From NCBI GenBank assembly GCA_022820945.1, contig JAJEEP010000073.1, positions 1 through 63,289 of the forward strand: a stretch of 63,289 nucleotides of DNA, in the 5' to 3' direction. This DNA comes from Alphaproteobacteria bacterium (GTDB taxonomy: Bacteria > Pseudomonadota > Alphaproteobacteria > UBA828). Position numbers and translations under genes: made by a program. How positions within the stretch are numbered: the first letter of the stretch is position 1; the number at the start of each line of letters is the position of its first letter. The notes beneath the pieces are model-generated. The model worked only from the letters and a program-made list of their open reading frames with translations, was not told the DNA's origin and did not search any database. This document shows, one piece after another, positions 9,540 to 51,929 of the stretch.

Positions 9540-9622
9540 GGTTCCTTCGCCGCGCGTGAACGTCGGCAGCAAGCCGCCGCCGACTCTGGCTTTGGTCGAC
9601 CTGGGCCGCTACCGTGCGGCCG

Positions 9623-33840: not shown

Positions 33841-33916
33841 TCCCCGGTAGCTCAGTTGGTAGAGCAAGCGGCTGTTAACCGCTGGGTCGCTGGTTCGAGT
33901 CCGGCCCGGGGAGCCA
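33841..33916 (+). tRNA. tRNA-Asn (GTT anticodon)
   Basis: A 76-base cloverleaf, with acceptor TCCCCGG pairing CCGGGGA, D-arm GCTC/GAGC, anticodon loop CTGTTAA (GTT), T-loop GGTTCGAGTCC, discriminator G and encoded CCA. A TATATA box about 60 bases upstream may be its -10. Confidence 0.97.
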
Positions 33917-34031
33917 GTTTCGGGGCCGCCGGCGCGGGCGGCCCGCCAAAGGACGCGAGACCCCGAAGGGCAATCCCGGCGGGGTCTCGTCGTTTGTGTT
34001 CGGAGCACCGTGCCGACGCTTCAGGCGCGCA

Positions 34032-34700
34032 TCAACTCTGCGTGAACATCTCGCCGTCGAAGCGCTCGCGGGTGGCGATCTCCTCCACCGGGCGGCGCCT
34101 CAACTTGGTGAGTTGCTTGACCGGGCGCCCGAAAGGCATGACCGCGCAGACCGCGTGATCCTCCGGGATGTTGAGCAGCGTCTTGATCTCGGGCTCGTGG
34201 GCGATGGGGAGGGTCGTGATCGTGCCGCCGAACCCGTTCTGACGGGCTGCCAACAGCAGGCTCCAGGCGAAGGGATAGATCGAGGCCCCGCCGATCACGC
34301 CGACGCGGTCCAGATACTGATCGGTCGCGGCGACGACCTTGAGGTCGACACAGACCACGAGCACGACAGAGGACTTGATCAATGGCTCGGTCAGCATGGC
34401 CGGCGCCGAAGTCGCCTCGATCTGCTCGGGCGTGAGCTTGGTCGGAATCCAGGCGCTCCAGGGGCTTTCGCCTGCGTCCATCTGGGCGCGGTAGCGCTTG
34501 GCGACGGGCACGGTCAGGTCCGAGAGCCGCTGCCTGGTGGCCATGTCGCGCACGATGATGACCCGATTACCCTGGCGATTGCCCCCGCTCGGCGAGAAGC
34601 GGGCGTTCTCGATCATCTCGTAGATCACCTCGTCGGGCAGGTGATCGTCGGTGAAGTCGCGACAGGCGAAGGTCGTGCGCATGGCCTCGTACAGTTCCAT
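34032..34700 (-). CDS. Nitroreductase-family oxidoreductase
   Basis: A 222-residue FMN-dependent protein. The FMN-binding start is TTFACRDFTDDHLP followed by ARFSPSGGNRQGNRVIIV, and the later IGGASIYPFAWSLLLAARQNGFGG and PFGRPVKQL segments fit the nitroreductase fold. It is probably a cytoplasmic NAD(P)H enzyme reducing quinones, nitro groups or enoates. It is isolated, with no obvious operon partner. A role in sterol metabolism is not indicated by sequence although that cluster begins 0.8 kb away. Confidence 0.9.
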   Translation of the reverse strand: MELYEAMRTTFACRDFTDDHLPDEVIYEMIENARFSPSGGNRQGNRVIIVRDMATRQRLSDLTVPVAKRYRAQMDAGESPWSAWIPTKLTPEQIEATSAPAMLTEPLIKSSVVLVVCVDLKVVAATDQYLDRVGVIGGASIYPFAWSLLLAARQNGFGGTITTLPIAHEPEIKTLLNIPEDHAVCAVMPFGRPVKQLTKLRRRPVEEIATRERFDGEMFTQS

Positions 34701-35058
34701 CGATTCGTCCTCTCAGCGTTCGGCGACATACCCGGCGGCGACAAAGCCCACCCGGTCGCAGGGTATGCCGAAAGGGGCCGGCAACGGACGGACCACCATC
34801 AATAGAATGCAACTAACTGTATTCACGCCATATTCCCGGTGGACGGTTCCTCTGTCCCCACATTGATACCCACACGCCGGGCGGCGACAGGTGGGCACGC
34901 TTGGCAAGCTTATACGGTCGACACTCTGGAAACCAATATCCATCGCGCTCACCCTGGGGTTTGTAGCCGTCGATCGGCGCGTAGATTCGACGCTGATCGG
35001 CGTACTAGGGCATTTTTCAATCTTAGAGAATTCTTAGAATTTTCAATCGCTTGGAAAT
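34701..35058. other. Non-coding region with AT-rich stretch
   Basis: No gene can be supported. The segment from about 35005 to 35065 is clearly AT-rich (runs such as TTTTTCAATCTTAGAGAATTC) and unlike the surrounding GC-rich DNA, which suggests transferred or IS-derived DNA upstream of the istB remnant. Confidence 0.45.
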
Positions 35059-35154
35059 GTGTTTCAAGATACCGGCGCACTGCTCGACCGCATCACCCAC
35101 CACCTCCATATCCTGGAAATGAACGCGGACAGCTACCGGTTCAAGCAGAGCTGA
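35059..35154 (+). pseudogene. IS21-family istB 3' remnant
   Basis: A 31-codon stretch ending at TGA 35152-35154 encodes ALLDRITHHLHILEMN then DSYRFKQS. This is the C-terminus of IstB, the IS21 helper ATPase. The rest of istB and the transposase istA are absent. It is the last piece of a deleted insertion sequence, oriented towards the sterol genes. Confidence 0.6.
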
Positions 35155-35530
35155 TCGCGGCGCCGGTCTCCTTCCGAATAATCCCGCTTGCCCCCGTGGG
35201 CCCACAGGCCCAGCCTGCGCGCGGGCGGCCAGCCGCGCGGAGGCGCGTCGCCCCGCGCGCGGGGCCCTCCCGTGGACTACGCGGACAAGCTGACGCCGAG
35301 ATCCTGGTACAATTTTACTCCGCCGCAGTGCAGGCCGGAGCCAAGCCCCATTACGGCATCTCCAAGGGGGATATTTGCGTTTCGGGAATTTCGACAGACT
35401 TTGCCAAGGGGGCTGGGCGAGAATAGGGATCGGCAGTGCGTAGAAGCGCGACGCACCAATGCGATACGTTGGCATAACTTATGAGCGCCATAAGCGTATT
35501 CTCTTGGACGTTATATGACTAAATTGAATA
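35155..35530. mobile_element. Probable IS21-derived tail and promoter region of the sterol genes
   Basis: After the istB stop come about 280 bases with a TGGTACAATTTTACTCCGCC block (near 35307) of a type I associate with IS21 flanks, then an AT-richer part. The palindrome CTTATG-N5-CATAAG at 35478-35494 could be an operator for the P450 gene about 180 bases further on. No protein gene is seen. The IS boundary cannot be placed exactly. Confidence 0.4.
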
Positions 35531-35657
35531 GATTTTGCCCTGTCGGGATTCGTGCTGACCTGCCCCCGAAGCCCACGACTTCTATTTCAGGAGGCCCGAG
35601 GAAGAGCTGAACGCCAAGGCCGTCTACCGCTTCACCGTACCCATCTTCGGACGCGGC
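35531..35657 (+). pseudogene. 5' remnant of CYP51, out of frame at a run of five C
   Basis: Codons 35531-35566 read DFALSGFVLTCP, and codons from 35568 read EAHDFYFRRPEEELNAKAVY, in frame with the P450 body. CYP51 proteins have a matching stretch (…LLTGPEAHEFFFRAP…). The two halves are joined only if one C of the run 35563-35567 is removed; as read, TGA at 35556-35558 closes the P450 frame. The first ~60-80 residues of CYP51, including the membrane anchor region, have no counterpart upstream. Confidence 0.65.
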
Positions 35658-36755
35658 GTGGCCTACGACACCTCCCCGGACATCATGGCGGAGCAGCTGG
35701 GCTTTCTGTTTCCGGCGCTCCGCGAGGCGGCCATGCGCAGATACGCCCTCATCATGTTCGACGAGGCGCGGCAGTTCGCCGACTCCCTGGGCAAGGAGGG
35801 GGATATCGATCTGCCGCAGGCGATGAACGAGCTCACGGTCAAGATCGCCAGCCGCTGCCTGATCGGACAGGAGGTCCGCGATCGGGTGGACACCGGCTTT
35901 GCCGAGATCTATCGCGACCTGCAGAAGGGCCTTAACACCCTGGGATTTTTCCTCCCCAGACTTCCCGTCGCAGCGCATCGAAAGCGCGACGAGGCCCGGC
36001 GACGGGTGGCGGAGCTCTTCGGCGGAATCATGGATGCGCGCCGGAACGCCGAGGCCAGCCCCGACGACTTCATGCAGACGCTGATGAACGCCCGCTACAA
36101 GAGCGGCCGCGCGCTCAGCGACGACGAGATCACGGGGATCCTGCTGACGGTGCTCTTCGCGGGTCAGCACACCAGCGCGGTGCTCGCGACCTGGACCGGC
36201 CTGGAGTTGCTCAGGGCGCCGGCGTACCTGGCACGGGTGAGAGACGAGGTGCAGGAGGTTTACCGCGAAGCGGGGTCCATGAGCATCGACAGCCTCCAGC
36301 GCCTGCCGGCTCTGGAGAACGCCGTCCGCGAGTGCGAGCGCCTGCATCCGCCTCTGATAATGCTGATCCGAAAGGTGCTCGAACCCCTGCGCTACGGAGA
36401 CTGCGTGGTGCCCGCAGGCACCATGGCGATGGTGTCGCCGGCGGTCTCTCACCGCCTGCCCCATGTGTTCGCCGACCCGGAGCGGTTCTTTCCGGACCGG
36501 TTCGCCCCTCCTGCGAGCGAGGACAAGCAGCACCACTACGCCCTGATCGGCTTCGGCGGCGGCAAGCACGCGTGCATGGGCAAGAACTTCGCGTACATGC
36601 AGCTCAAGGCGATCTGGACCGTTCTACTGGATCGCTTCGATTTCTCTCTCAGCGGCGCGTTTCCACGTCCGAACTACGGCAGCTGGGTGACCGGGCCTGA
36701 GAGACCGTGCCGCGTCCGCTACCGTCGCCGCGCGCAGCCGAGCGTTTTCTCATGA
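35658..36755 (+). CDS. CYP51-like sterol 14-alpha-demethylase, N-terminally truncated
   Basis: A 365-residue cytochrome P450 of the CYP51 family, which removes the C-14 methyl of lanosterol-type sterols. Motifs: I-helix FAGQHTSAVLATW (the His before Thr is characteristic of CYP51), ExxR in ECERLHPP, and heme loop FGGGKHACMGKN with the ligand Cys codon at 36573-36575. The AYDTSPDIMAEQLGF and ELTVKIASRCLIGQEVRD segments also match CYP51. The start used (GTG 35658) is the first in the open frame. Homology continues upstream across a frameshift, so as read the product lacks its N-terminus and is probably inactive. Its TGA overlaps the next ATG (ATGA). It could be intact if the frameshift is a sequencing error and an N-terminus were present, but none is seen. 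Confidence 0.85.
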   Translation: MAYDTSPDIMAEQLGFLFPALREAAMRRYALIMFDEARQFADSLGKEGDIDLPQAMNELTVKIASRCLIGQEVRDRVDTGFAEIYRDLQKGLNTLGFFLPRLPVAAHRKRDEARRRVAELFGGIMDARRNAEASPDDFMQTLMNARYKSGRALSDDEITGILLTVLFAGQHTSAVLATWTGLELLRAPAYLARVRDEVQEVYREAGSMSIDSLQRLPALENAVRECERLHPPLIMLIRKVLEPLRYGDCVVPAGTMAMVSPAVSHRLPHVFADPERFFPDRFAPPASEDKQHHYALIGFGGGKHACMGKNFAYMQLKAIWTVLLDRFDFSLSGAFPRPNYGSWVTGPERPCRVRYRRRAQPSVFS

Positions 36756-38701
36756 GCGGCGCCGCGTCGCGGCCTTACGACGTGGCCATCGTCGGCGCGG
36801 GGCCGGTCGGGAGCTTGTGCGCGCTCGCTCACGCGCGGAAGGGCGCCCGGGTGGCCCTTCTCGAAGCGAATCCCAAGGCGTCCCAGCGTCTGGCGGGCGA
36901 ATGGCTGCATCCGCCTGGCGTCCAGATACTGCAGGACTTCGGGATCGGGCTGGACACCCTGCCCCGCAGCGCCGCGGGCAGGGGCTTCGTGGTGTTTCCC
37001 GATGACGGCTCGGAGCCGATCGTCCTTCCCTACGTGAATGGCTCGCAGGGTCTGGCCTGCGAGCATGCGTTGCTCGTCTCGAAGCTGCGGGACGCCATCG
37101 GGAACGAAGCGGACGTGGATTTCTTCACCCCCGCGCGGGTCGGTGCGGTCGAAGACGGCCGGCTGGTCTATACCAGCAACGGCACGGTTCACACCCTCGA
37201 TGCCGCACGAATAGTCGGCGCCGACGGCCGCGCCTCGATCGTGCGCCAGTCGCTCGGCCTGTCGACGGAGCCGATGCTCTGCTCGCGCATGCTGGGGGTC
37301 ACGGTGAGCGGTGTGAGCCTGCCCTTCGAAGGTCATGGCCATGTGCTGCTCGGCGGCCCGGGGCCGATACTCGCTTACGGCTTGGCAAACGATTGCGTCC
37401 GGATCATCGCCGATGTTCCGCTGGACCGCTGGTCACGCCAGGACCGGGTCGGCTTCCTGACGGAATCCTATGCAGCCCTGCTGCCGGAGGCTCTCAGGCC
37501 GGCGTTCGTCGAGGCGCTGCGGGCGGGGCAATTCCACGTTGCAGCCAATCAGTTGCGGCCACGCGTCACTTACGGCACCCCGCGTCGCGTGCTGATCGGC
37601 GACGCGGCCGGACACTACCACCCTATGACGGCGGTCGGCATGACCCTCGGTTTCGGCGATGCGCTCGCCCTCGCCGAGGGCGGGAACTTTGGCGACTTCG
37701 CCGCCGAGCGCTTCCGGGCGACCCATGTGCCGGAGTTGCTCGCCATGGGGCTCTACGAGGTCTTTGCCGATCATCGGCCCGAGGCGGTGGCGATGAGACA
37801 CGCGGTCTACCGGGGGCTGCGAACGAACCCCGTTTACCGGGAGCGGACCTCGCGGGTACTCGCCTGCGAAGACCGATCCGCGCTCGGGATGGGTCTCGCG
37901 TTTTTCGGAACGGCAGCCCGGGCGGCGGCCGTGGAGATTCCGCTTTCCCTCCGCCAGTTCGCTCCGCGTCGGGGTCTGAAGATCTTCGGTGCGCTCGCCG
38001 TTCGTCTCTGGTGGCTCTTGCGTTGGGGTCTGCAGCTGCGCCGGTCAAGACGCGAGGGCGGGCAGAATGATGATCGGTCGCTGGACAGCCTGGCCCGTGC
38101 ACTCTTGCACTCCATGCCGCCGGGGCTCGACGCTGCCGGGTCCGGCCGGCCGAAGGACCCCGAGGCGCCCGATGCCAGTCCGGCACTGGAGAGCGCGACG
38201 GCGCAGCTCCTCAGTCTCCAGGGCAAGGACGGCGACTGGGAAGGCGAGATGGTCTGGTGCCCCATGCTCACAGCGCAATACGTGCTGCTGCACCACATCA
38301 TCGTGCGGCCGCTCGAGCCCGGCCGGCGCCGGCGCGTGCTGCGCTCGTTCGAACGGACCCGTCTCGAAGGCGGCGCGTGGGGCCTGCACGAGCACGCGTC
38401 GCCCCACCTCTTCGTCACCGCCCTGGTCTACGTCGCGGCGAGACTACTCGGCGTCGAGCGTGACGATCCCCTTGTCGAGCCGGCCCGGCATTTCATACAG
38501 GCCGAGGGGATCGTGGCCATTCCGAGCTGGGGAAAGTTCTGGCTGGCGCTGCTGAACCTCTACGACTGGCGCGGGGTCAACGCCGTCCTGCCGGAGCTGT
38601 GGAGCCTGCCGCGGCGCATACCCTTGCATCCCTCCAACTGGTACTGCCACACGCGGCTCATCTACATGGCAATGGCGGCGGTTTACGCGCACCGCTTCTA
38701 G
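36752..38701 (+). CDS. Squalene monooxygenase fused to N-terminal part of oxidosqualene cyclase
   Basis: The first 649 codons of a fused sterol enzyme. Residues 1 to about 400 are squalene monooxygenase: FAD loop VAIVGAGPVGS, RLAGEWLHPPG (RxxGExLxPxG), GADGRAS, and GDAAGHYHPMTAVGM with Asp284, matching the squalene epoxidase GD motif. A charged linker (about 430-480) leads to a QW-type repeat and cyclase sequence GKFWLALLNLYDWRG, LPLHPSNWYCHTR-like. At codon 650 (38699-38701) there is TAG, and the cyclase continues in the same frame beyond it. The start ATG at 36752 overlaps the CYP51 stop. The enzyme converts squalene to oxidosqualene; the cyclase half is incomplete here. Confidence 0.88.
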   Translation: MSGAASRPYDVAIVGAGPVGSLCALAHARKGARVALLEANPKASQRLAGEWLHPPGVQILQDFGIGLDTLPRSAAGRGFVVFPDDGSEPIVLPYVNGSQGLACEHALLVSKLRDAIGNEADVDFFTPARVGAVEDGRLVYTSNGTVHTLDAARIVGADGRASIVRQSLGLSTEPMLCSRMLGVTVSGVSLPFEGHGHVLLGGPGPILAYGLANDCVRIIADVPLDRWSRQDRVGFLTESYAALLPEALRPAFVEALRAGQFHVAANQLRPRVTYGTPRRVLIGDAAGHYHPMTAVGMTLGFGDALALAEGGNFGDFAAERFRATHVPELLAMGLYEVFADHRPEAVAMRHAVYRGLRTNPVYRERTSRVLACEDRSALGMGLAFFGTAARAAAVEIPLSLRQFAPRRGLKIFGALAVRLWWLLRWGLQLRRSRREGGQNDDRSLDSLARALLHSMPPGLDAAGSGRPKDPEAPDASPALESATAQLLSLQGKDGDWEGEMVWCPMLTAQYVLLHHIIVRPLEPGRRRRVLRSFERTRLEGGAWGLHEHASPHLFVTALVYVAARLLGVERDDPLVEPARHFIQAEGIVAIPSWGKFWLALLNLYDWRGVNAVLPELWSLPRRIPLHPSNWYCHTRLIYMAMAAVYAHRF

Positions 38702-40162
38702 GCGCCCGTCACGCCCCCGATCGCGGCGCTGCGGGAAGAGCTGTTTCCCCAAGGATTTGCCGACGTCGATTTCTCCGCCACCCGCAATTCCCTGCGGGAG
38801 GCCGACCTCTACGCGCGGCCGAGCGTGTGGCTTAAGGTTGGATACACGATTGCGCGCGTGTTCGATCGGCTCCACGACAAACGCCTGCGCGCCCGATGCA
38901 CGGAGGCGATCGTCCGGCAGATCAGATGGGAGCTGCAGACCACCAGCCATACGAGCATCTCTCCGGTGAGCGGCCTTCTCAACATGCTTGCCCTGTGGCT
39001 GCGCGATCCGGACGACGCCGATTTGCGCCAGGCGCTCGCGAAGCTGGACGACTGGTTTTGGGAAGACGAGGAAGAGGGTGCGCGTGTCGTCGGCGCGAGA
39101 AGCGCCTCGTGGGACAGCGGCTTCGCGTTGCAGGCACTGGCAGCAGCGCCCGCGTTCGACGGGGTCGGGGACGCGCTGCAGCGCGGCGCCGACTTCCTAC
39201 TCGGAGAACAGATTGCCGCCAGCTTCGACGGTTTTCGCGAGGCCTATCGAACCGACCCCAGGGGCGGCTGGTGCTTTGCCGGGGGATGGCATGGCTGGCC
39301 GGTGAGCGACTGCACTGCGGAAGCGGTGCTCGGACTTCACGCTGCCGGTCGCGGCGCTGTGCACGCGAGCGCGTTGCGCGATGCGGTCGGGTTCATGCTG
39401 CGTTGCCAGAACCGCGATGGCGGATTCGGCAGCTACGAGGCGCGACGCTCGGCTTTCGGTTTGGAGTGGATGAATCCGGCCGAGATGTTCGGCGATTCGA
39501 TGACCGAGCAATCCTATGTCGAGTGCACCGCGTCCTGCCTCGCGGCGCTCGCCGCCTGCGCGGAGGACGTTCCGCAGATCGCGGATGGAGCCGTGACGGG
39601 CGCCATGTCCCGGGCCGATGCCTGGCTTCGCCGGACCCAGGAAAGCGACGGGTCGTGGCGCGGCGTGTGGGGGGTTCAGTTCATTTACGGAACCCTCTTC
39701 GGAATCAGGGGTCTTCTATCGGCCGGAGCCGGCCCCGACGATCCGGCGCTTCGCTCGGCCTGCCGCTGGCTGCTAGAGCGCCAGCGGGAAGACGGCGGAT
39801 GGGGCGAGCACCACAGTGGATGCCTGACCGGCCGGTACGTGCCGCACGAGGAAAGCCAGGTCATCCAGACCGCGTGGGCCTTGATTGCACTCCTCGAGGC
39901 GAACGAAATGAACTGGATTGCGATCTCGCGGGGCGCCCGCTTCCTGCTCGACGCGCAAGACGCGGACGGAACATGGCCCAAGCAGGACATGGCGGGCGTG
40001 TTCTTCCGAACGGCGCTCCTGGATTACGTGCTCTATCGACAGTATTTCCCGCTGCACGCGCTCGCTCTCTACGAGCGGCGCCGCCGCGAGCGGCTGGGTC
40101 TCGCCGCCGCCCCGCGCGCTGCCGATGCGCCTGCAGCTCCGTCGGAGGCGGCTGCAGCCTGA
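38702..40162 (+). CDS. C-terminal part of oxidosqualene cyclase, downstream of an in-frame TAG
   Basis: The same frame as the preceding entry continues without a further stop for 486 codons of oxidosqualene (lanosterol/cycloartenol-type) cyclase. Right after the TAG come APVTPPIAALREELFPQ and SATRNSLREADLY, matching the cyclase family without a gap. The catalytic motif is DCTAE (Asp codon 39308), not the DxDD of squalene-hopene cyclases. WGVQFIYGTLFGIRGL and DGGWGEHHSGC are also cyclase-specific, as are several QxxDGxW repeats. If independently translated, the first GTG is at 38825, too far in for a working cyclase. If TAG were read through or were an error, one 1136-residue fusion would result. 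The product is probably a tetracyclic sterol precursor. Confidence 0.88.
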   Translation, partial: APVTPPIAALREELFPQGFADVDFSATRNSLREADLYARPSVWLKVGYTIARVFDRLHDKRLRARCTEAIVRQIRWELQTTSHTSISPVSGLLNMLALWLRDPDDADLRQALAKLDDWFWEDEEEGARVVGARSASWDSGFALQALAAAPAFDGVGDALQRGADFLLGEQIAASFDGFREAYRTDPRGGWCFAGGWHGWPVSDCTAEAVLGLHAAGRGAVHASALRDAVGFMLRCQNRDGGFGSYEARRSAFGLEWMNPAEMFGDSMTEQSYVECTASCLAALAACAEDVPQIADGAVTGAMSRADAWLRRTQESDGSWRGVWGVQFIYGTLFGIRGLLSAGAGPDDPALRSACRWLLERQREDGGWGEHHSGCLTGRYVPHEESQVIQTAWALIALLEANEMNWIAISRGARFLLDAQDADGTWPKQDMAGVFFRTALLDYVLYRQYFPLHALALYERRRRERLGLAAAPRAADAPAAPSEAAAA

Positions 40163-40224
40163 TCCCGGTCCTGAGCGTCGGCGTTCCGGCGCAGTCGCGC
40201 GCGGTCGAGACGGCCCGCTTCGGA

Positions 40225-41256
40225 TCAGTCGCGCGGGGGCCCGGGCTTGCGGGCCAAGAAAAAGAACATCGGCGTGAAGACGCCGGACCTGCCGCCGTCC
40301 ACCAGCGCGTACGCCGCCGCGTTCAAGAGCGTGCAGACCTCACGGGAGCCCTCGGGAAAGAGCCGAAGCCTTTCCCCGACCCGCAAGGTCAGATTGGTCA
40401 GCGCGCGGCCGACGGGCGTGCGCGGAATGCTTGAAAGGCTGAGGTCCCGACCCTGCAAGGCACGGTACCAGGGCATCTCCGGGTCTGCATCGGGTGCGCG
40501 GTCGCGCGCTTCCAGGAGTTCGAATCCCGCCGTCTGCAACGCGGCGGAAACCTCCGACGTGGAAGCGATGTCCGGCAGCGCATCGCCCACCATGATGTCG
40601 TTCTTGATTCGCAGATGCTCCGCGTTCGCCGAATCGAATTTCTCGGTGAGGCACCAATCGTAGCCTGCGAAGCAGGCTCCGGGGCGCAGCACGCGCAAGA
40701 CCTCCCGGAACGCGTCTGTCTTGTCGGGCGCGTGGGGCATGGACTCGATCGCAATGGCAGCGTCGTAGCGGTCGTCTTCCTCAGGAATCTGCATGTAGTC
40801 GCCGTGAATGAAGCGGCATAACGACTGGACATCCTGGGTGTGAAGTTTGGCGCGCTCGATCTGGTAGGCGTTGTTGTTGATTCCGACAAAGCTGGCCCCT
40901 GAATGGCGCGCCAGATTGCCCATCGGCCCGCCGACCCCGCACCCCACATCGAGGACTCGCATGCCCGGTTTCAGGGACAACCGTTCGGCCAGAAAATGCT
41001 GGTGCCGCAGTAGCGACGCCTTGAAGCTCTCGCCCCGCCTTCGGGGAGCGAAGTGAAAGGATTGCCCCCAGCCGAATTCGTAGAAGTCGGTGACCAGGTC
41101 GTAGTAGCGATTCACGAACGAGCGATAATGCTCCTTCCTGCGCTCCAGGCCGGCGTCGTAGATGTCAGTGTATCCATCGACCGTGGACTTCACGTCGTCT
41201 GGGGCGAGATTCGCGAGGGAGCGCGGTTTCGATCGTGCGGCCGAGGTGCGATTCAT
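40225..41256 (-). CDS. Sterol C-24 methyltransferase (ERG6/SMT-like)
   Basis: A 343-residue SAM-dependent enzyme that methylates C-24 of the sterol side chain. The sterol-binding region is YEFGWGQSFHF (residues 59-69). The SAM motif is VLDVGCGVGG (101-110), followed by INNNAYQIERAK. A third region, AIESMPHAPDKTDAFREVL (from about 169), matches the SMT acidic pocket. The C-terminal GYDWCLTEKFDSANAEH block is also SMT-specific. It is convergent with the cyclase gene (62 bases apart) and divergent from the membrane protein at 41445. Length and motifs look intact. Bacterial members are known but uncommon. Confidence 0.92.
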   Translation of the reverse strand: MNRTSAARSKPRSLANLAPDDVKSTVDGYTDIYDAGLERRKEHYRSFVNRYYDLVTDFYEFGWGQSFHFAPRRRGESFKASLLRHQHFLAERLSLKPGMRVLDVGCGVGGPMGNLARHSGASFVGINNNAYQIERAKLHTQDVQSLCRFIHGDYMQIPEEDDRYDAAIAIESMPHAPDKTDAFREVLRVLRPGACFAGYDWCLTEKFDSANAEHLRIKNDIMVGDALPDIASTSEVSAALQTAGFELLEARDRAPDADPEMPWYRALQGRDLSLSSIPRTPVGRALTNLTLRVGERLRLFPEGSREVCTLLNAAAYALVDGGRSGVFTPMFFFLARKPGPPRD

Positions 41257-41444
41257 CCGTGCACTTTGCCAGAGCCGCGCGCCGTACCCAAGACTTTAGA
41301 ATCATGGGAAGCCACGGTAGCTCGCTCCATGAGGCCGATATCGAGGGCGTTCCGAGCGCGTCACCTTTGTCCGGAGCTCCGGGCGCTCGGCAGGGTACAA
41401 TGCAGCGAGCCGCCACGCCGCAGACTCTGACAGGATCGGATCAC

Positions 41445-42179
41445 ATGCCCGAGGAGCAAACCGAGCGAGCCGGTTCCGAATACGGCGCACACCGGACTTG
41501 GTTGGCAATATCGCCGATCGTGTTCACCGGGTTGATCATCGCGATTCTGACAGCGGCCGGCATCGGTGCACGCTACGGCGTTCGCGGGGATTTCGACGTC
41601 TTTCATGTACTCCTGATACTCTTCTTTTCGATCAACCTGGTGATATGCCACTGGGAGGTGTGCCTCTTCTTCAGGCGGGATTATATCGAGAAGCGTGCCG
41701 AATACTGGCGCGAGCGTCGAGACGAAACGGGCCGGACATCGGCCGTCGAATTCCTTACTGGAAGGGTTCCGTTGACGCGAATATTGTCGTCGACGGTATG
41801 GGCCGACGTTTGGGCGACGTATGCCCAATTCGACGGTTCCTACGCCGACCGGCGCACGTATGGCTACAACGCGGATGTCGCCAACGGCTTCGTAACGCCG
41901 GTACCGACACTGATCCTCTTCGCGGCCTTTACCGTCGATTTCTTGCCCGCCCTCGTCGCCGGCATCATCGGAGCGATGCTGTTCTGGCAGTTGATCTACG
42001 CAACCTCGGTCTATTGGGTCAGCTTCTTCGTGGCCAAGCAGCAACGCCGCCTCGGCCGCAAGGATATGTACATCTATATCTGGGGACTGAATTGCCCATG
42101 GGTGCTGTTCGCCCTGCTGGGACTCTACGTCTCCGTTCGCCTGATCCTGAACGGCAACTACAGCGTTCTCGGCTATTGA
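41445..42179 (+). CDS. Polytopic membrane protein, possible EXPERA/emopamil-binding-like
   Basis: A 244-residue inner-membrane protein with about five hydrophobic segments (near 20-42, 50-75, 152-175, 178-198, 208-235). Parts align by eye with the sterol delta8-delta7 isomerase (EBP) fold: INLVICHW against the EBP helix bearing its His and Glu, WATYAQFDGSY against the KEYAKGDSRY loop, and a late NCPW with the Asn and Trp three apart, as in EBP. The presumed catalytic His and Glu positions are not conserved (Asn, Cys, Asn), so isomerase activity is uncertain. It is divergent from the methyltransferase and shares its upstream region. Otherwise the family is unrecognised. Confidence 0.6.
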   Translation: MPEEQTERAGSEYGAHRTWLAISPIVFTGLIIAILTAAGIGARYGVRGDFDVFHVLLILFFSINLVICHWEVCLFFRRDYIEKRAEYWRERRDETGRTSAVEFLTGRVPLTRILSSTVWADVWATYAQFDGSYADRRTYGYNADVANGFVTPVPTLILFAAFTVDFLPALVAGIIGAMLFWQLIYATSVYWVSFFVAKQQRRLGRKDMYIYIWGLNCPWVLFALLGLYVSVRLILNGNYSVLGY

Positions 42180-42492
42180 TCGCGACTTCCCCCGGAACAA
42201 CGCCGATCAAGACGACTGACCTCGCCAGGCCCTCAGCTTGCTCAGCCGCTCGAACGGGTATTGCGGTGCGGATCCCGACGTCGCTAGCGCTGCTCCGTCG
42301 TGCATGCCAGGCGTCTTCAGGCTCCGTATCCCCGCAGCTGTCAGTTTCGACATTTCCCATCCCCACATTCATGCCAACACCAATGTTGGGAACGTATGCA
42401 AAGCGCTGGGAACATACGAGAGCAGTATTCTCGGCAACGTGCCGAAATAAAAAGATTTTTTAGAACTCCCGAGAACGCTCAGGGAAGGGGGC
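42180..42492. other. Intergenic region with short repeats
   Basis: No gene is supported. There is a near-direct repeat, TGGGAACGTATG and TGGGAACATACG (42381-42417). A weak hairpin CGGC-N5-GCCG is followed by an A/T-rich run near 42440-42463 and may terminate transcription of the membrane-protein gene. Confidence 0.4.
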
Positions 42493-42580
42493 TGGCGGAG
42501 GGACGGGGATTCGAACCCCGGACACCTTTCGGTGAACACGCTTTCCAGGCGTGCGCCTTAAACCACTCGGCCATCCCTCC
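42493..42580 (-). tRNA. tRNA-Ser (GGA anticodon)
   Basis: An 88-base minus-strand tRNA with acceptor GGAGGGA/TCCCTCC, anticodon loop CTGGAAA (GGA) and the long variable arm of serine tRNAs. Encoded CCA follows discriminator G. Confidence 0.97.
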
Positions 42581-42656
42581 GCGGCGGCGGAACAATAGCA
42601 ACAACCCCTGGCGCTGCAATATCGGAGACACCATATAGGGCGAAAGGAGAGGTCAT

Positions 42657-42959
42657 ATGGTGATTCTTCGGCTCGTCGGGCTCGTGCTCGGCCTGGTGTT
42701 CCTCGCGGTGCTCGGCCATGAGATCTACAAGTTCGCGAGCGTCGGCGGCTACCGCCTGGTCAGCGCCGGCGAGCTCTGGGCGCGGTCCGACGCCAACAGC
42801 CTCGTGGGCTTCCAGGCGCTGATCGAGAAGGGTGCCGCACCTTGGCTCTGGTCGGACATCGTCCTGCCGGTGCTGCTCGGCCCCGCCTGGGCGATCCCCC
42901 TGGTGCCGGCGGCGCTGCTGCTCGTGCTGGCAAGGCGCCGGCGCCGCCAACTCGCATAA
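42657..42959 (+). CDS. Small membrane protein, 100 residues
   Basis: A 100-residue protein with two hydrophobic helices, one at the N-terminus (LVGLVLGLVFLAVLG) and one near the C-terminus (PLVPAALLLVLA), ending in a run of arginines. AGGAGAGG lies just upstream of the ATG, so it is very likely translated. Its family is unknown; it lies between tRNA-Ser and lepA, convergent with lepA. Confidence 0.75.
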   Translation: MVILRLVGLVLGLVFLAVLGHEIYKFASVGGYRLVSAGELWARSDANSLVGFQALIEKGAAPWLWSDIVLPVLLGPAWAIPLVPAALLLVLARRRRRQLA

Positions 42960-42971
42960 TCCGGTAACCGC

Positions 42972-44774
42972 CTACGACTCGCTCATCTTGAGCGCGGCGA
43001 GAAACGCCTCCTGCGGAATCTCGACGTTGCCGATCTGGCGCATGCGCTTCTTGCCCTTTTTCTGCTTCTCCAGAAGCTTCCGCTTGCGCGTCACGTCGCC
43101 GCCGTAGCACTTCGCGAGCACGTCCTTGCGCAGGGGGCTCACGGTCTCGCGCGCGACGATCTTGCCGCCGATCGCGGCCTGGATTGCGATCTTGAAGAGC
43201 TGGCGCGGAATCAGCTCCTTGAGGCGGACGCAAAGCGCGCGGCCGCGCCGCTCGGCCTGACTCCGGTGGGCGATGAGGGCCAACGCGTCTACGGGCTCAC
43301 CGTTGATCATGATGGCGAGCTTGACCAGGTCGCTCTCCAGGTAGTCTTCCAGCCGGTAATCGAAGCTCGCGTAGCCGCGCGAGACCGACTTCAGCCGGTC
43401 GTAGAAATCGAACACGACCTCGTTGAGCGGAAGCCGGTAGATCACCATCGCGCGGTTGCCCGCATAGGTGAGGTCGAGCTGGACGCCGCGTTTCTCCTCA
43501 CAGAGCGCGAGCACGCCGCCGAGATGCTCGTCGGGCACCAGGATCGTCGCGTGAATCCATGGCTCGTCGATGCGCCTGATCCGTGTGGGGTCCGGCATGT
43601 CCGCCGGGTTGTGAAGCGATAGTTCCTGCCCGTCGGTCAAGGTCACGCGGTAAACCACGCTAGGCGCCGTCGCCACGAGATCGAGGCCGAACTCGCGCTC
43701 CAGTCGCTCCTGCACGATCTCCAGATGGAGCAGGCCGAGGAAGCCGCAGCGGAAGCCGAAGCCCAGAGCAGGCGAGCTCTCGGCGTCGTAATGAAAACTC
43801 GAATCGTTGAGGCGGAGCTTGGCGAGGCTCTCGCGCAGCCGCTCGTAATCGTTCGAATCGACCGGGAAGAGCCCGCAGAAGACCACGGGCACGCTGGGGC
43901 GAAAGCCCGGCAGCGCTTCCGCTGCGGGACGCCTGACTGCCGTGATCGTGTCGCCGACCTCGCAGTCCGCCACGTCCTTGATGGCGGCGGTGATGAAGCC
44001 GATCTCGCCCGGCTCCAGGCTCTCCACCAGCGTCCTCTTCGGCGTGAACACGCCCACCCGCTCGACTTCGTGCTCCGCGCCCGAGGCCATCATCCTGATC
44101 TTCATGCGTGGCGTGAGCCGGCCATGCACGACGCGCACCAGGATCACCACGCCGAGATAGGGGTCGTACCAGCTGTCGACCAGCAGCGCCGTGAGCGGCG
44201 CATCGGCGTCCCCCGCAGGCGCCGGCAAGCGGGCAACGAGCGCGTCCAGCACGGTCTCGATGCCGTGGCCGGTCTTGGCCGAGACCTCCAGGGCGCCCGA
44301 TGCGTCGATGCCGATGACGTCCTCGATCTGCTGCTTCACCCGCTCCGGCTCCGCCGAGGCGAGGTCCATCTTGTTGAGGACGGGAACGATCTCGTGGTCG
44401 TGGTCCACCGCCTGATAGGCGTTGGCGAGGGTCTGCGCCTCCACGCCCTGGGTGGCGTCGACAACCAGCAGCGAGCCTTCGCATGCCGCCAGAGAGCGGC
44501 TGACTTCGTAGGAAAAGTCGACGTGGCCGGGGGTGTCCACCAGGTTGATCAGATGCTCGGACCCGTCGGCGCCGCGATAGGCGAGGCGCACGGTCTGCGC
44601 CTTGATCGTGATGCCGCGCTCGCGCTCGAGCTCCATCGAGTCGAGCACCTGGCTCGTCATCTCGCGCTTCTGCAAGCCGCCGCAGCTCTCGATCAACCGG
44701 TCGGCGAGCGTCGACTTCCCATGATCGATGTGGGCGATGATCGCGACGTTACGGATGCGCGCGAGATCGGTCAT
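42972..44774 (-). CDS. lepA: Elongation factor 4 (LepA)
   Basis: A 600-residue translational GTPase that back-translocates or remodels stalled ribosomes. The G1 loop is AHIDHGKST, followed by [26 protein letters not shown] and NKMDL. The C-terminal region ends [19 protein letters not shown], diagnostic of LepA. Its ATG lies 37 bases after the pheT stop, making it the last gene of the translation block. The length is the family standard. Confidence 0.98.
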
Positions 44775-44810
44775 GGCCCGTCCCGAATAGTCTGCCGGCG
44801 CAGGTGTGCG

Positions 44811-47219
44811 TCAGCCGCGCAGCACGCCGCCGGTCATCTTCTCCACGTTGGCGACGATCTTCGCGGCCGCCGCGTCGATTTCCGGGTCTGTCAGCGTGCG
44901 GTCCTGGGCCTCGAGGCGAACGGCGATCGCGAGGGATTTCTTGTCCGCCTCGATGCCGGGGCCGGCATAGACGTCGAATACCGTGACCGCCTTGATCAGC
45001 GACTTCTCGGCATTGCGGGCCGCGCGCTCGACCTCCGAAGCGGGGACCGCGCTGTCGAGGATGAACGCGAAGTCGCGCTCCGCCGCCGGATAGTCGGAGG
45101 CGGCCAGTGCCTGCTTGGCGCGTGTCGCCTTCGCCTTGGGCCGGGGCAGGGCGTCGATCATCACCTCGAAGCCGACCATCGGCCCCTCGGCCCCGAGTTC
45201 GGCAACGACGCCCGGATGAAGCTCGCCGAACGTGGCCAACACGTTGGGGCCGAGACCGAGCGTGCCGACCCGGCCGGGGTGGTACCACGCCGGGCCTTCC
45301 GCCCTGGTCTGGAGGTTGCCGAGCGAGACGCCGGCCGCGTTCAGAGCGGCGAGCGCGTCGGCCTTGGCATCGAAGGGGTCCACCGGGCGCTCCGGCCCGT
45401 GCCAGTTGCGCGGTACCGCCGCCTGTGCCCGCACGCCCGCGACGACGGTGGATTGCTCCCCGGGCGCGGTGCCGGCATAGACCGGTCCCACCTCGAAGAG
45501 CGCTGTATCGGCGAAGCCGCGGTCCGCATTGCGCCGGCAAGCCTCGATCAGATTGGGGAGGATCGACGGGCGCATGGCGTCGAGCTCGGCGTTGATCGGG
45601 TTGGCCAGCACCAGCGAATCGGGCGCATCGCCGAAGAGCGCCGCGTGCTGCCTTGGCATGAACGACCAGGTCACCGCCTCGAACATGCCGCGCGCCGTGA
45701 GCGAGCGGCGCACCGCGCCGAGCCGGCGGCGCGTGGGCGAGAGCGCCGGCCGCGCCCGCTCGCTCGCCGTCGGACTGAGGGAGACCGCGGGGATCTGGTC
45801 GAAGCTCGCGATCCGCAGCACTTCCTCGACCAGGTCGGCCTCGCCGGCGATGTCCCCCCGCCAGGGCGGCGGCGCGACCGAGACCGTGCCGTTGTCCTGC
45901 TCCTCGCACGCGAAGCCGAGGGCCGTGAGGATGCCGAGCGACTCCTCCCGCTCGCAGTCGACGCCGCCGAGCGCCTTGACCCTGGAGGGGCGAAAGGCGA
46001 TTTGGCGCCGCCATGCGGGCTCTGCGCCCGCGATCACGACCTCGCTCGCCTCGCCGCCGCAGAGCTCGATCACGAGCCGGGTCATCAGCTCCATGCCCGG
46101 CCCTGCGAAGGCCGGATCGACGCCGCGCTCGAAGCGGTAGCGGGCGTCGCTCTCCAGGTTGAAGGTGCGCCCGGTCGCGGCGGTGCGGACGGGATCGAAG
46201 AGCGCGACCTCGATGAAGACGTCGGTCGTCTCCATCGTGCAGCCCGTGGGCTCGCCGCCCATCACGCCGGCGAGGCTGATCACGCCGCTCTCGTCGCCGA
46301 TCCCGGTCATGGCGTCGTCGAGCACGTAGTCCTTGCCGTTGAGCGCGGCGAACGGCGCGCCGCCCTGGCCGAGGCGGAGCCAGATGTCGCCCTTCACCTT
46401 GCCGGCATCGAAGACGTGCACCGGACGGTTGCGGTCGATGGTGAGGAAGTTGGTGAGGTCCACGAGAGCGGAAATCGGGCGCAGCCCGACCGAGGCGAGC
46501 CTCTCCTTGAGCCAGCGCGGGCTCTCGCAGTTGCGCACGCCCCGGATGTAGCGGCCGAGGAAGAGGGGGCACGGGCTCGGCCCTTCGCCGGGGAAGTCGA
46601 GGATCACGTCGATGGGGCTCGTGAACGTGCCGGCGACGGGCTCAATCTCGGCGCTCTTGAGGCGGCCGAGCCCGGCTGCCGCGAGGTCGCGGGCGATGCC
46701 GTAGACGCCCAGGCAATCGGCCCGGTTGGGCGTGATCGCGATGTCGAACAGGGGATCGTCCAGGCCCATCACTTCAGCGAAGGGCGCGCCCACCGGGGCC
46801 TCCGGGTCGAGCTCGATGATCCCCTTGTGCTCGTCGCTCAGGCCCATCTCGCGCTCGGAGCAGAGCATGCCGCAGCTCTCGACGCCCCTGATCTTCGCCT
46901 TCTTGAGCACGACGCCGGTGCCGGGGATGGTGGTACCGGGCGGGGCAAAGACGCCCTTCATGCCCGTGTGCGCATTCGGCGCACCGCAGACCACCTCGAT
47001 CTGTTCCGTGCCGGTATCGACCGTGCAGAGCCTGAGCTTGTCGGCGTTGGGATGCTGCCGCGCCTCGACCACGTAGGCGACGGTGAAGGGCGCGAGATCG
47101 TCGCCGGGCCGGCGGACCTCCTCCACCTCGAGCCCGATGGCGGTGAGCTTCGCCGCGATATCGTCGACCGACGCCTCCGTCTCCAGATGCGTCTTCAGCC
47201 ATGAGAGGGTGAACTTCAC
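44811..47219 (-). CDS. pheT: Phenylalanyl-tRNA synthetase beta subunit
   Basis: An 802-residue beta subunit. It has an N-terminal EMAP-type tRNA-binding domain (HPNADKLRLCTVDTG), a B3/B4 editing region, B5, and a C-terminal anticodon-binding (FDX-ACB) domain with YPAAERDFAFI. The GTG at 47219 is chosen because it overlaps the pheS TGA (GTGA) and matches the conserved MKFTLSWLKTHL start. The longer open frame upstream lies inside pheS. Confidence 0.97.
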   Translation of the reverse strand: MKFTLSWLKTHLETEASVDDIAAKLTAIGLEVEEVRRPGDDLAPFTVAYVVEARQHPNADKLRLCTVDTGTEQIEVVCGAPNAHTGMKGVFAPPGTTIPGTGVVLKKAKIRGVESCGMLCSEREMGLSDEHKGIIELDPEAPVGAPFAEVMGLDDPLFDIAITPNRADCLGVYGIARDLAAAGLGRLKSAEIEPVAGTFTSPIDVILDFPGEGPSPCPLFLGRYIRGVRNCESPRWLKERLASVGLRPISALVDLTNFLTIDRNRPVHVFDAGKVKGDIWLRLGQGGAPFAALNGKDYVLDDAMTGIGDESGVISLAGVMGGEPTGCTMETTDVFIEVALFDPVRTAATGRTFNLESDARYRFERGVDPAFAGPGMELMTRLVIELCGGEASEVVIAGAEPAWRRQIAFRPSRVKALGGVDCEREESLGILTALGFACEEQDNGTVSVAPPPWRGDIAGEADLVEEVLRIASFDQIPAVSLSPTASERARPALSPTRRRLGAVRRSLTARGMFEAVTWSFMPRQHAALFGDAPDSLVLANPINAELDAMRPSILPNLIEACRRNADRGFADTALFEVGPVYAGTAPGEQSTVVAGVRAQAAVPRNWHGPERPVDPFDAKADALAALNAAGVSLGNLQTRAEGPAWYHPGRVGTLGLGPNVLATFGELHPGVVAELGAEGPMVGFEVMIDALPRPKAKATRAKQALAASDYPAAERDFAFILDSAVPASEVERAARNAEKSLIKAVTVFDVYAGPGIEADKKSLAIAVRLEAQDRTLTDPEIDAAAAKIVANVEKMTGGVLRG

Positions 47220-48292
47220 GCGCTCAGTCCCCCGGCCAGGCTCGGCACGTCGAAGGGCGCGAAGCCGTAGTGGCGCAGCCAGCGCAGGTCGGCGTCGAAG
47301 AAGCTGCGCAGGTCGGGAATGCCGTACTTCAGCATGGCCGGGCGCTCGACCCCGAGGCCGAAGGCGAAGCCCTGGTAGCGCGCAGGGTCGAGCCCCACGA
47401 TCTCCAGCACCTTCGGGTGCACCATGCCGCAGCCCAGAATTTCCATCCAGTCGGCACCGTGGCCGATGCGCAGGCCCCCGCCTTCCCGCGAGCAGCCGAT
47501 GTCCATTTCGGCGGAGGGCTCGGTGAAGGGGAAGTAGCTCGGTCGGAAGCGCACCGGCAGGTCTTCGACCTCGAAGAACGCCCGCGCCAGATCGATCAGG
47601 CAACCCTTGAGATGGCCCATGTGGGTGCTCTCGTCGATCACCAGCCCCTCGATCTGATGGAACATGGGCGTGTGGGTCATGTCGTAATCGCAGCGGTAGG
47701 TGCGGCCCGGCGCGATGATCCGGTGCGGCGGCGGCTCGGCCTCCATGTGGCGGATCTGCACCGGCGAGGTGTGGGTGCGCAGCAGCATGCGCTCGCCCGC
47801 CTCGTCGGCGCCGAAATAAAAGGTGTCGTGCATCTGCCGCGCCGGGTGTTCCGGCGGGATGTTGAGCGCCGTGAAGTTGTGGAAGTCGTCCTCGATGTCG
47901 GGCCCTTCGACGACCCGAAAGCCCATGTCGGCGAGGATCGCGATCAGCTCGTCCAGAACCTGGCTGATGGGATGAACGGTACCCTCCGCCTCCGGGCGAG
48001 GCGGGAGCGTGACATCCACCCGCTCGGTCGCGAGGCGGCGGTCCAACTCGACGCGTTCCAGCGCCGCGCGGCGTTCGTCAACCGCGTCGGCGAGCCTGCG
48101 CTTGATCCGGTTGAGCCGGACGCCGGCATCCTTGCGGGCTTCGATGTCGAGACCGCCCAGTCCCTTCATCGCTTGGGAGAGAGGCGACTTCTTGCCGAGC
48201 GCGGCGACGCGCGCCTGCTCCAGTGCGGGCAGGTCGCCGGCCGCCTCGATCCCGGCCAGCATCCGCTCTTCCAGGGCGTGAAGGTCTTCCAA
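47216..48292 (-). CDS. pheS: Phenylalanyl-tRNA synthetase alpha subunit
   Basis: A 358-residue catalytic subunit. Its class II motifs include HTSPVQIRHMEA, the FHQIEGLVID region, and FPFTEPSAEMDI. The start is probably the TTG at 48292, with GGAG about nine bases upstream, because no ATG or GTG fits the family length. It follows rplT by 43 bases and overlaps pheT. The coiled N-terminal arm for tRNA binding is present. Confidence 0.94.
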   Translation of the reverse strand: MEDLHALEERMLAGIEAAGDLPALEQARVAALGKKSPLSQAMKGLGGLDIEARKDAGVRLNRIKRRLADAVDERRAALERVELDRRLATERVDVTLPPRPEAEGTVHPISQVLDELIAILADMGFRVVEGPDIEDDFHNFTALNIPPEHPARQMHDTFYFGADEAGERMLLRTHTSPVQIRHMEAEPPPHRIIAPGRTYRCDYDMTHTPMFHQIEGLVIDESTHMGHLKGCLIDLARAFFEVEDLPVRFRPSYFPFTEPSAEMDIGCSREGGGLRIGHGADWMEILGCGMVHPKVLEIVGLDPARYQGFAFGLGVERPAMLKYGIPDLRSFFDADLRWLRHYGFAPFDVPSLAGGLSA

Positions 48293-48335
48293 GGACCCTA
48301 CTCCGACGGCCGAGCCACGATGGCGCGGCGGCCGA

Positions 48336-48701
48336 TCAGCCGGTCGCGCCGTGCGCGCTCCGTGCCTGCTCCACGACGGCCGCGAACGCCGCCGGCTCAC
48401 GGACGGCGAGGTCCGCCAGCACCTTGCGGTCGATGTCCACCTTGGCGAGCGCAAGGCCGTGCATGAGCTGCGAATAAGTGAGCCCGTGCTCGCGCGCCGC
48501 GGCGTTGATCCTTTGAATCCAGAGCGCGCGGAAGCGGCGCTTGCGGGTGCGGCGGTCGCGATAGGCGTACTGCAGCGCCTTCTCGACGCGCCCGAAGGCC
48601 ACGCGGTAGCTGGAATGGCCGCGCCCGCGATAGCCGCGGGCCAGCTTCAATACCTTCTTGTGCCGGGCGTGGGTGGTCACGCCCCGCTTTACCCGTGCCA
48701 T
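48336..48701 (-). CDS. rplT: 50S ribosomal protein L20
   Basis: A 121-residue L20 with the conserved basic start [26 protein letters not shown] and the [15 protein letters not shown] core. L20 is needed for large-subunit assembly and, in many bacteria, represses its own operon by binding the message. It is preceded by rpmI at 21 bases. Confidence 0.98.
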
Positions 48702-48722
48702 GGGAATGGTCCTCCGACGCGC

Positions 48723-48920
48723 TCAGAGATAGGGCAGGAACTGCCGCACGATCGCCGCATCCGGCCCCGAGAGCACCTTGGCTCCGCGCTGATTGCGCTT
48801 CACCTTCTTCTCGCGCTTGGTCAGGTTGTGGCGATGGTATGCGGTGCGCCGGCGAAGCTTGCCGCGCCCCGTGGCGGAGAACCGCTTCTTGGCGCTGCTC
48901 TTGGTCTTGAGCTTGGACAT
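48723..48920 (-). CDS. rpmI: 50S ribosomal protein L35
   Basis: A 65-residue, strongly basic L35 ([38 protein letters not shown]). It is part of the infC-rpmI-rplT operon. The distance to infC is about 190 bases (48921-49113), long enough to hold a regulatory RNA or a second promoter; I could not define one by eye. Confidence 0.98.
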
Positions 48921-49113
48921 AAGCGTCTCGCGATCTTCGTCGTTACACGAAAAGGGATGGGGCGCGACGGGCGCGCGCCCTTGTACTCGCAGTACCGGCG
49001 GGATTCAAGGGTAGAAGCCACACTCAGCGCGGACTCACCCGCGCATGACGGGCCGCCGGCCTCGCTCATGCATCGCCGCCTAGGGGCTCGGGCGCCGGTG
49101 CGGCGCCCGACGG

Positions 49114-49650
49114 CTATTTGCAGGTCATCACCATGGTCATCTGACGGCCCTCCATCTTCGGCATCTGCTCGACCTTCGCCAGATCCTCGAGGTCGTCGCG
49201 CACGCGCATCAGCACGTTCATGCCGATATTCTGGTGAACCATCTCGCGACCCCGAAAGCGCATGGTCACCTTGACCTTGTCGCCTTCGTCGAGGAAGCGG
49301 CGGATGTTCCGCAGCTTCACATCGTAATCAGCCGCATCGATGCCGGGCCGGAACTTGACCTCCTTGATATCGATCGTCTTTTGCTTCTTGCGGGCTTCGC
49401 TGGCCTTCTTCTGGGCCTCGTACTTGTACTTGCCGAAGTCGAGGAGCTTGCACACCGGCGGTTCCGCATCCGGTGCGACCTCGACCAGGTCGAGCCCCGT
49501 CTCGTCCGCGAGCTCCAAAGCGCGCTCCACGGCGACGACGCCGACCTGCCCTCCGTTTTGATCGATGAGGCGGACACTTGCCGCCTGAATGTCATCATTG
49601 ACGCGCGGTCCTTCACGCGTCGGTGGTGCTGCGACCGGATGTCTCGCTAT
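49114..49650 (-). CDS. infC: Translation initiation factor IF-3, probable ATA start
   Basis: A 178-residue IF-3, which keeps subunits apart and proofreads initiator pairing. The conserved blocks are [50 protein letters not shown] and GREMVHQN. No ATG, GTG or TTG lies before the conserved start region. An ATA at 49650 stands six bases after GGGAGG and gives the typical (I/M)ARHPV… beginning. infC often uses a rare start codon, which lets IF-3 repress its own translation. A short ATG-initiated frame (MKGGGG then stop) overlaps this ribosome site. Confidence 0.93.
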
Positions 49651-49720
49651 CCTCCGCCTCCCTTCATCGTGGCGCTTCTCGGGCCGGCGGCGGCACCGTC
49701 ATGTCTGGTCCAGCGCCTCG

Positions 49721-51661: not shown

Positions 51662-51929
51662 TGCGGCGGCGTCGAATCCCTGCTTGCTCGGTGAAAGTCG
51701 CGGCACTCTATCCGCGGCGCTTCGCCTGTCAAGGAAGGCTTGTTGATGCTGAATCTTGTTTTCCCTCAGGCGCCGCTCGCTTGTTCCGCTCGATCGCGCG
51801 CCGTTGCGCGCGCGGATGCGCGACGCTACGCGCTTTGCGGCGCGCTGGCGCTCGACAAGACTTTCCATTGCGGACTATATCCTTAGTTGATGGCGCGATG
51901 GTGCTGGAGTTGGGGCGCTGGAGCTGGGC

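Follow-up and report, generated by a model that had tools for sequence, protein, structure and literature searches.

A broken copy of a predicted sponge-symbiont-type sterol cassette beside a tRNA-Ser gene in an alphaproteobacterial genome

The cassette remnant and its two lesions

The window, that is, the whole 63,289-nucleotide stretch analysed here, is contig C71 of G000, a metagenome-assembled genome (MAG) of an alphaproteobacterium of the GTDB lineage UBA828 (GCA_022820945.1, contig JAJEEP010000073.1; 4.66 Mb in 178 contigs, 95.2% complete, 6.5% contaminated). It contains a group of predicted sterol-biosynthesis genes: a fragment of a CYP51 gene, a frame for a fused squalene monooxygenase-oxidosqualene cyclase (SMO-OSC), a sterol C-24 methyltransferase (SMT) gene and a gene for an unannotated membrane protein. 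We compared this locus across the eight genomes of its genus, G000 and the congeners G001-G007. Intact cassettes lie in G001-G003 (loci L119-L121); that of G003, L121, serves as the intact reference. The features of the cassette are as follows.

35,379-42,184: cassette remnant, inside an insertion at 34,778-42,492
35,379-35,553, plus strand: cassette upstream (promoter-side) region, 79% identical to L121 16105-15930, ahead of that locus's sdmB-like gene
35,554-35,564, plus strand: deletion junction, 3,778 bp lost relative to G003
35,562-36,755, plus strand: CYP51 fragment without its N-terminus; p450 profile matched from position 71
36,752-40,162, plus strand: SMO-OSC fusion frame (ATG at 36,752) with DCTAE and one internal stop
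38,699-38,701, plus strand: in-frame TAG in the cyclase; G001-G003 have no internal stop
40,225-41,256, minus strand: SMT (SMT/ERG6 type), 343 aa, intact; Sterol_MT_C (PF08498) with an S-adenosylmethionine (SAM) domain
41,445-42,179, plus strand: unannotated 244-aa membrane protein, intact; predicted EBP/EXPERA fold, likely sterol isomerase

In the intact sister loci, the order is sdmB-like, sdmA-like, ERG24, CYP51 and SMO-OSC fusion, followed by the SMT gene on the other strand and the EBP-like membrane-protein gene. The names sdmB and sdmA (or msbA and msbB) were given to the first two genes by domain and position; in L121, Pfam assigns them to the Epimerase/3Beta_HSD type and the Rieske oxygenases, respectively, with the ERG4/ERG24 gene next. 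These 5' genes, i.e. the NAD(P) oxidoreductase (DFR) and the Rieske/hypothetical gene, are present in L119-L121 and deleted in the window. On the other side of the junction, the 136 bp compared, which begin at 35,565, match the interior of the G003 CYP51 gene with 96% identity, and L121 has 3,778 bp between the points equivalent to window positions 35,553 and 35,565. It follows that the window has lost the genes sdmB-like, sdmA-like and ERG24 together with 65 CYP51 residues; the alignment of the CYP51 fragment starts at residue 66 of the intact congener's 462-residue frame. The contiguous ERG24-CYP51-lanosterol synthase core of G001-G003 is thus lacking in the window, and the SMT gene retains its 3'-terminal place and its opposite orientation. 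The second lesion, the TAG at 38,699, interrupts the cyclase frame within about 3.2 kb of the first. Whole-genome searches of all 178 contigs of G000 found no place matching ERG24 (two each in G001, G002 and G003) and none matching the SdmA-like protein (one each in the same three).

We therefore read the locus, with a probability of roughly 0.83, as the remnant of a likely mobile, predicted sterol cassette of the sponge-symbiont (msb/CSG) type, broken by a 3.8-kb deletion and an in-frame stop, in a bacterium that likely no longer makes sterols from squalene. De novo sterol synthesis has likely stopped because the ERG24, SdmA-like and SdmB-like genes and the start of CYP51 are deleted and the cyclase is interrupted. 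Judging from what is known of these families, the intact fusion would turn squalene into its epoxide and cyclise it, demethylation at C-14 and reduction of the delta-14 bond would fall to CYP51 and ERG24, the SdmA/B-like enzymes would strip the C-4 methyls, and the SMT would methylate C-24. A first-pass annotation had placed a set of such genes at 35,531-41,256, an extent that falls short of the remnant. The gene identities it gave are borne out; departing from its description, the CYP51 has no N-terminus and the fusion carries an in-frame TAG. Its proposal that this bacterium or its ancestor could make 24-alkylated sterols is supported for the ancestor, given the uninterrupted fusion in three of the seven congeners, and is not supported for the bacterium itself.

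Identities of the enzymes

The best solved-structure matches of the CYP51 fragment are CYP51s (E 3.8e-99), and its sequence, FGGGKHACMG included, is of the CYP51 type. For the fusion, we used an intact relative, P0124 (1,132 residues), alongside the window pieces. P0124 matches human lanosterol synthase at 2.1e-131 and squalene-hopene cyclase at 1.1e-51; its N-terminus matches human squalene monooxygenase (E 1.2e-24); and it scores 738 bits against the OSC model vs 268 against the squalene-hopene cyclase (SHC) model. Both P0124 and the window pieces are accordingly OSC rather than SHC, and a hopene cyclase identity was ruled out; this separation, like that from eukaryotic proteins, rests on profiles and solved-structure matches rather than on a tree with eukaryotic or hopene-cyclase references. 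The window's fusion frame also has DCTAE, which we take to be an OSC marker.

A protein search with the part of the fusion before the stop returned 665 proteins at E 0.001 among 7,993 candidates scored. The fusion is 1,104–1,134 residues long in 113 of the 120 matches listed, and DCTAE occurs in 112 of the 120. Judged on these sequences, the SMO-OSC fusion is natural. The closest fusion relative among the matches listed (88%), P0121, is encoded on a 9746-base contig, leaves the shared frame part-way and ends at 851 residues; it may be a second related copy that is also broken. Among the 80 related loci described below, the best fusion match has an internal stop in three, two of them near the C-terminus.

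The window SMT matches PF08498 at 72.2 bits (cut-off, 21.7), and this is the only place in G000 that the profile matches. It is predicted from its sequence to methylate C-24, and a ubiquinone-type identity was rejected on this score. Further SMT-family proteins, 43-50% identical to that of the window, are encoded in G006:C288:27143-28051 (L122 7012-8052), G007:C102, G001:C73 (L124), G002:C66 and G004:C626 (L125), some of these congeners showing no fusion cyclase. Both paralogues tested, L122 and L125, were confirmed to have PF08498. An in-frame TGA had been reported in three SMT paralogues; in L116, read in frame, the TGA is the gene end.

The 244-aa membrane protein is likely a sterol isomerase, as judged from its predicted fold. 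Its predicted model has the EBP fold, and the protein would move the delta-8 double bond, a role suggested by that fold, by conserved residues, the invariant D130, D144, N216 and W219 among them, and by the gene neighbourhood. EBP-like relatives adjoin about one third of the related cassettes examined. The assignment rests on the predicted fold and a single bridging protein, which connects the family to EBP with an hhalign probability of 23.5%, one side of that comparison being a single sequence; a second candidate bridge, L145, gave no link. Several results weigh against it. EBP ranked first in a Foldseek search with the predicted model at an E of only 0.021, and the window protein, 14% identical to human EBP, the 3-beta-hydroxysteroid Delta8-Delta7 isomerase (8w0r, 6oht), reaches 8.4 bits against a Pfam PF05241 cut-off of 25.7. 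That profile matches 7 of 14 family members at all (best E 0.9). Further, the family profile found no credible relative among solved structures, and one of the 14 members matches another family, NrsF (E 0.015).

Insertion site, relatives and published clusters

The remnant lies within a segment that the equivalent site of G003 (L152) lacks. The features of this site are as follows.

33,954-34,724, minus strand: nitroreductase gene region, left flank of the insertion, kept in the same place in G003
34,778-42,492, strand not assigned: insertion of 7,715 bp, as compared with G003, that stops at the 3' end of tRNA-Ser(GGA)
42,493-42,580, minus strand: tRNA-Ser(GGA), whose 3' end borders the insertion

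Window positions 33,895-34,777 correspond to L152 8843-9724 (92%) and positions 42,493-51,733 to L152 9736-18961 (91%), such that G003 has 11 bp between the flanks vs 7,715 bp in the window. G003's own cassette sits on another contig. Alignment of G001, G002 and G003 extends over the cassette block, about 10.5 kb, and breaks off in the roughly 3–6 kb to either side. The empty site and these non-aligning flanks together indicate that, within one genus, the cassette is found at two or more chromosomal sites. In G000 it lies inserted at the 3' end of tRNA-Ser, and that the same site is empty in G003 attests directly to an insertion or an excision; which way the cassette moved is inferred. The longest match shared between the two borders, in a search for att-like direct repeats at the insertion ends, is 11 bp and possibly due to chance. 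Inspection by eye of the ends of the insertion, translated in six frames, brought up no recognisable integrase, a point that counts against mobility.

A scan of GTDB genomes for fusion relatives gave 226 stretches, the best 80 of which constitute the 80 related loci. The fusion tree has 81 rows: 79 of these loci (one was dropped as short), G002 and the window. The window fusion and its congeners fall inside a 27-row clade (SH-aLRT 100) with 23 alphaproteobacterial, one gammaproteobacterial and three unranked rows, in agreement with a bacterial origin. In the genus, the fusion is intact in three of eight genomes, broken in one (that of the window) and not shown in four, two of which are only 62% and 67% complete. 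In the family, it occurs in 4 of 21 genomes, all within the window's genus.

Among the 80 loci, CYP51 stands beside the fusion in 64 and SMT in 42. Thus, the annotation's view that bacteria even more rarely have all four activities together fails for sponge symbionts, as it also does against the clusters described in PMC9531527. Partial cassettes were encountered as well: L037 has matches to the sdmB-like gene, ERG24 and the fusion, with none to SdmA-like or CYP51; L079 has no ERG24 match; and in 15 of the 80 loci, several of them on short contigs, the fusion stands with none of the four upstream genes (4 of the 15 were looked at briefly). In L009, an ISXO2-like transposase-domain frame (9358-9939) lies directly upstream of a fusion without other cassette genes.

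Fused SMO/OSC proteins, complete clusters and active bacterial SMTs are already published, as the main texts of PMC7074536, PMC9531527 and PMC10070321 record. In a gammaproteobacterial symbiont of Melophlus, the msb cluster encodes an NAD(P)-dependent oxidoreductase, a Rieske oxygenase, a sterol reductase, a CYP51-type demethylase, a bifunctional squalene epoxidase/sterol cyclase and a SAM methyltransferase, the same six genes as the intact congener cassettes, and the genes flanking its ends do not resemble sterol genes (PMC7074536). The window differs from it in the loss of the three leading genes and of the beginning of CYP51, in the stop in the cyclase and in the presence of the EBP-like neighbour. 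CSGs were reported in 115 of 537 Ircinia MAGs from 10 phyla, with an ERG24-CYP51-LSS core, a 5' DFR and hypothetical gene and a 3' SMT or FDFT1 on the opposite strand, and inter-lineage transfer of such clusters was proposed from gene trees (PMC9531527); the window, unlike these, holds what is left of a cassette, at an insertion site beside tRNA-Ser. In vitro alkylation of C-24 is reported for many SMTs from sterol clusters of uncultured bacteria, in a paper whose methods also name fused SMO/OSC homologues (PMC10070321). A predicted C-8 isomerisation step has also been reported, through homologues in the Calothrix sp. NIES-4105 cluster (PMC10202945) and in Methylotuvimicrobium (PMC13277303); the present family falls below the Pfam EBP cut-off and stands beside sponge-type cassettes. 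Given the msb, CSG, SMT and C-8 isomerase reports, the annotation's headline was already known in kind.

The window adds to this a cassette copy that is broken, the site at which it is inserted and an EBP-like gene next to it. The words "isomerase", EBP and EXPERA do not occur in the main texts of PMC7074536, PMC9531527 and PMC10070321, nor do pseudogene and tRNA in the latter two or integrase in PMC9531527. Within these main-text words and literature listings, we found no prior report of the EBP-like gene, the tRNA-Ser site or the decay.

Age of the damage and what the remnant may still do

Pairwise ratios of nonsynonymous to synonymous substitution rates (dN/dS) were compared between window–congener and congener–congener pairs. 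They are 0.19–0.22 vs 0.19–0.24 for the fusion, 0.14–0.17 vs 0.12–0.13 for the CYP51 fragment, 0.13–0.19 vs 0.13–0.17 for SMT and 0.23–0.30 vs 0.25–0.30 for the EBP-like gene. Set against a decayed cassette are the fusion's lack of a raised value, the closeness of the slightly elevated CYP51 ratio to that of intact pairs, and the state of the 266 fusion columns with a conservation of 98% or more in the comparison sequences, none of which has changed in the window. Apart from the two lesions, these values leave hardly any sign of decay, and the deletion and the TAG alike rest on one MAG consensus. Relaxed selection was thus rejected as separate proof of decay, the small CYP51 rise being its only sign. 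With dN/dS and conserved columns near the intact level, the damage is either recent or partly an artefact of a single MAG; we hold recent damage to be likelier, since two independent lesions agree with the genome-wide absence of ERG24 and the SdmA-like protein.

The remnant could also mark a sterol maker turned modifier, which would use the two enzymes it has kept, the SMT and the EBP-like protein, to alter sterols obtained from a host sponge. Both frames are intact with low dN/dS (given above), and G006, 96% complete, offers a parallel: it shows no fusion cyclase and has an EBP-like gene (G006:C24:30894-31622, L132; 65% identical), an ERG4/ERG24-family gene and a PF08498 SMT-family protein. 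But the broken genes have similarly low dN/dS, so selection after the break is not demonstrated, and the sponge origin of G000 is drawn from its relatives only. Further, a second-type ERG4/ERG24-family protein of about 390 aa, encoded outside the cassette in six congeners (G001:C115, G002:C52, G003:C73, G005:C273, G006:C5 and G007:C54), was not found in G000. We regard this scenario as rather unlikely, although the surviving SMT and EBP-like proteins may act on sterols taken up from the host.

Less probable again is that living cells of this species have a complete, functional cassette and still make 24-alkylated sterols, and that assembly or consensus errors account for the deletion and the stop. 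The dN/dS values, not clearly raised, the unchanged columns, the intact SMT and EBP-like genes and the reliance on a single MAG would all suit it; yet the two lesions are independent and close together, the deletion joins two cassette parts on a single contig, and ERG24 and the SdmA-like gene, present in all three intact congeners, are missing from all of the G000 contigs. That the cyclase is of the hopene type and its pathway makes hopanoids is very improbable: the enzymes share a superfamily, but the OSC-favouring bit scores, lanosterol synthase as best solved match, the DCTAE presumed to mark OSCs and a separate squalene-hopene-type cyclase gene in the same genome speak against it. A eukaryotic contaminant, or genes recently derived from eukaryotes, can be set aside, for although the enzyme set is typical of eukaryotes, the right flank (6.6-9.3 kb, with tRNA-Ser and LepA) is syntenic with three congeners at 87-91%, the fusion lies in a mostly alphaproteobacterial clade, and the GC content of the cassette resembles that of its flanks.

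G000 likely keeps its squalene supply and hopanoids, since it has that separate squalene-hopene-type cyclase gene (G000:C172:115114-117009) and two adjacent squalene/phytoene synthase-family genes (G000:C132:12976-14600). A bolder and tentative proposal, which may well prove wrong, is that sponge cassettes across several phyla carry their own unrecognised, Pfam-divergent EXPERA delta8-delta7 isomerase, that the cassette moves as a unit between sites including tRNA-Ser, and that the break here leaves the SMT and isomerase to remodel host sterols. If true, the EBP-like family would supply the delta-8 to delta-7/delta-5 ring step lacking in published descriptions of sponge clusters; that is, the gene beside the cassettes, if an isomerase, provides a ring-isomerisation step that the sponge-cluster papers do not name in their main texts.

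These considerations bear on the interpretation of side-chain alkylated steranes, which are read as eukaryotic or sponge fossils; the ability of symbionts to finish such sterols depends on the steps that they encode. An OSC and an SMT found together in a MAG do not suffice to identify the organism as a sterol producer. A genus in which three species keep the fusion intact, one has it broken and four do not show it offers a natural comparison for the study of sterol function in bacteria.
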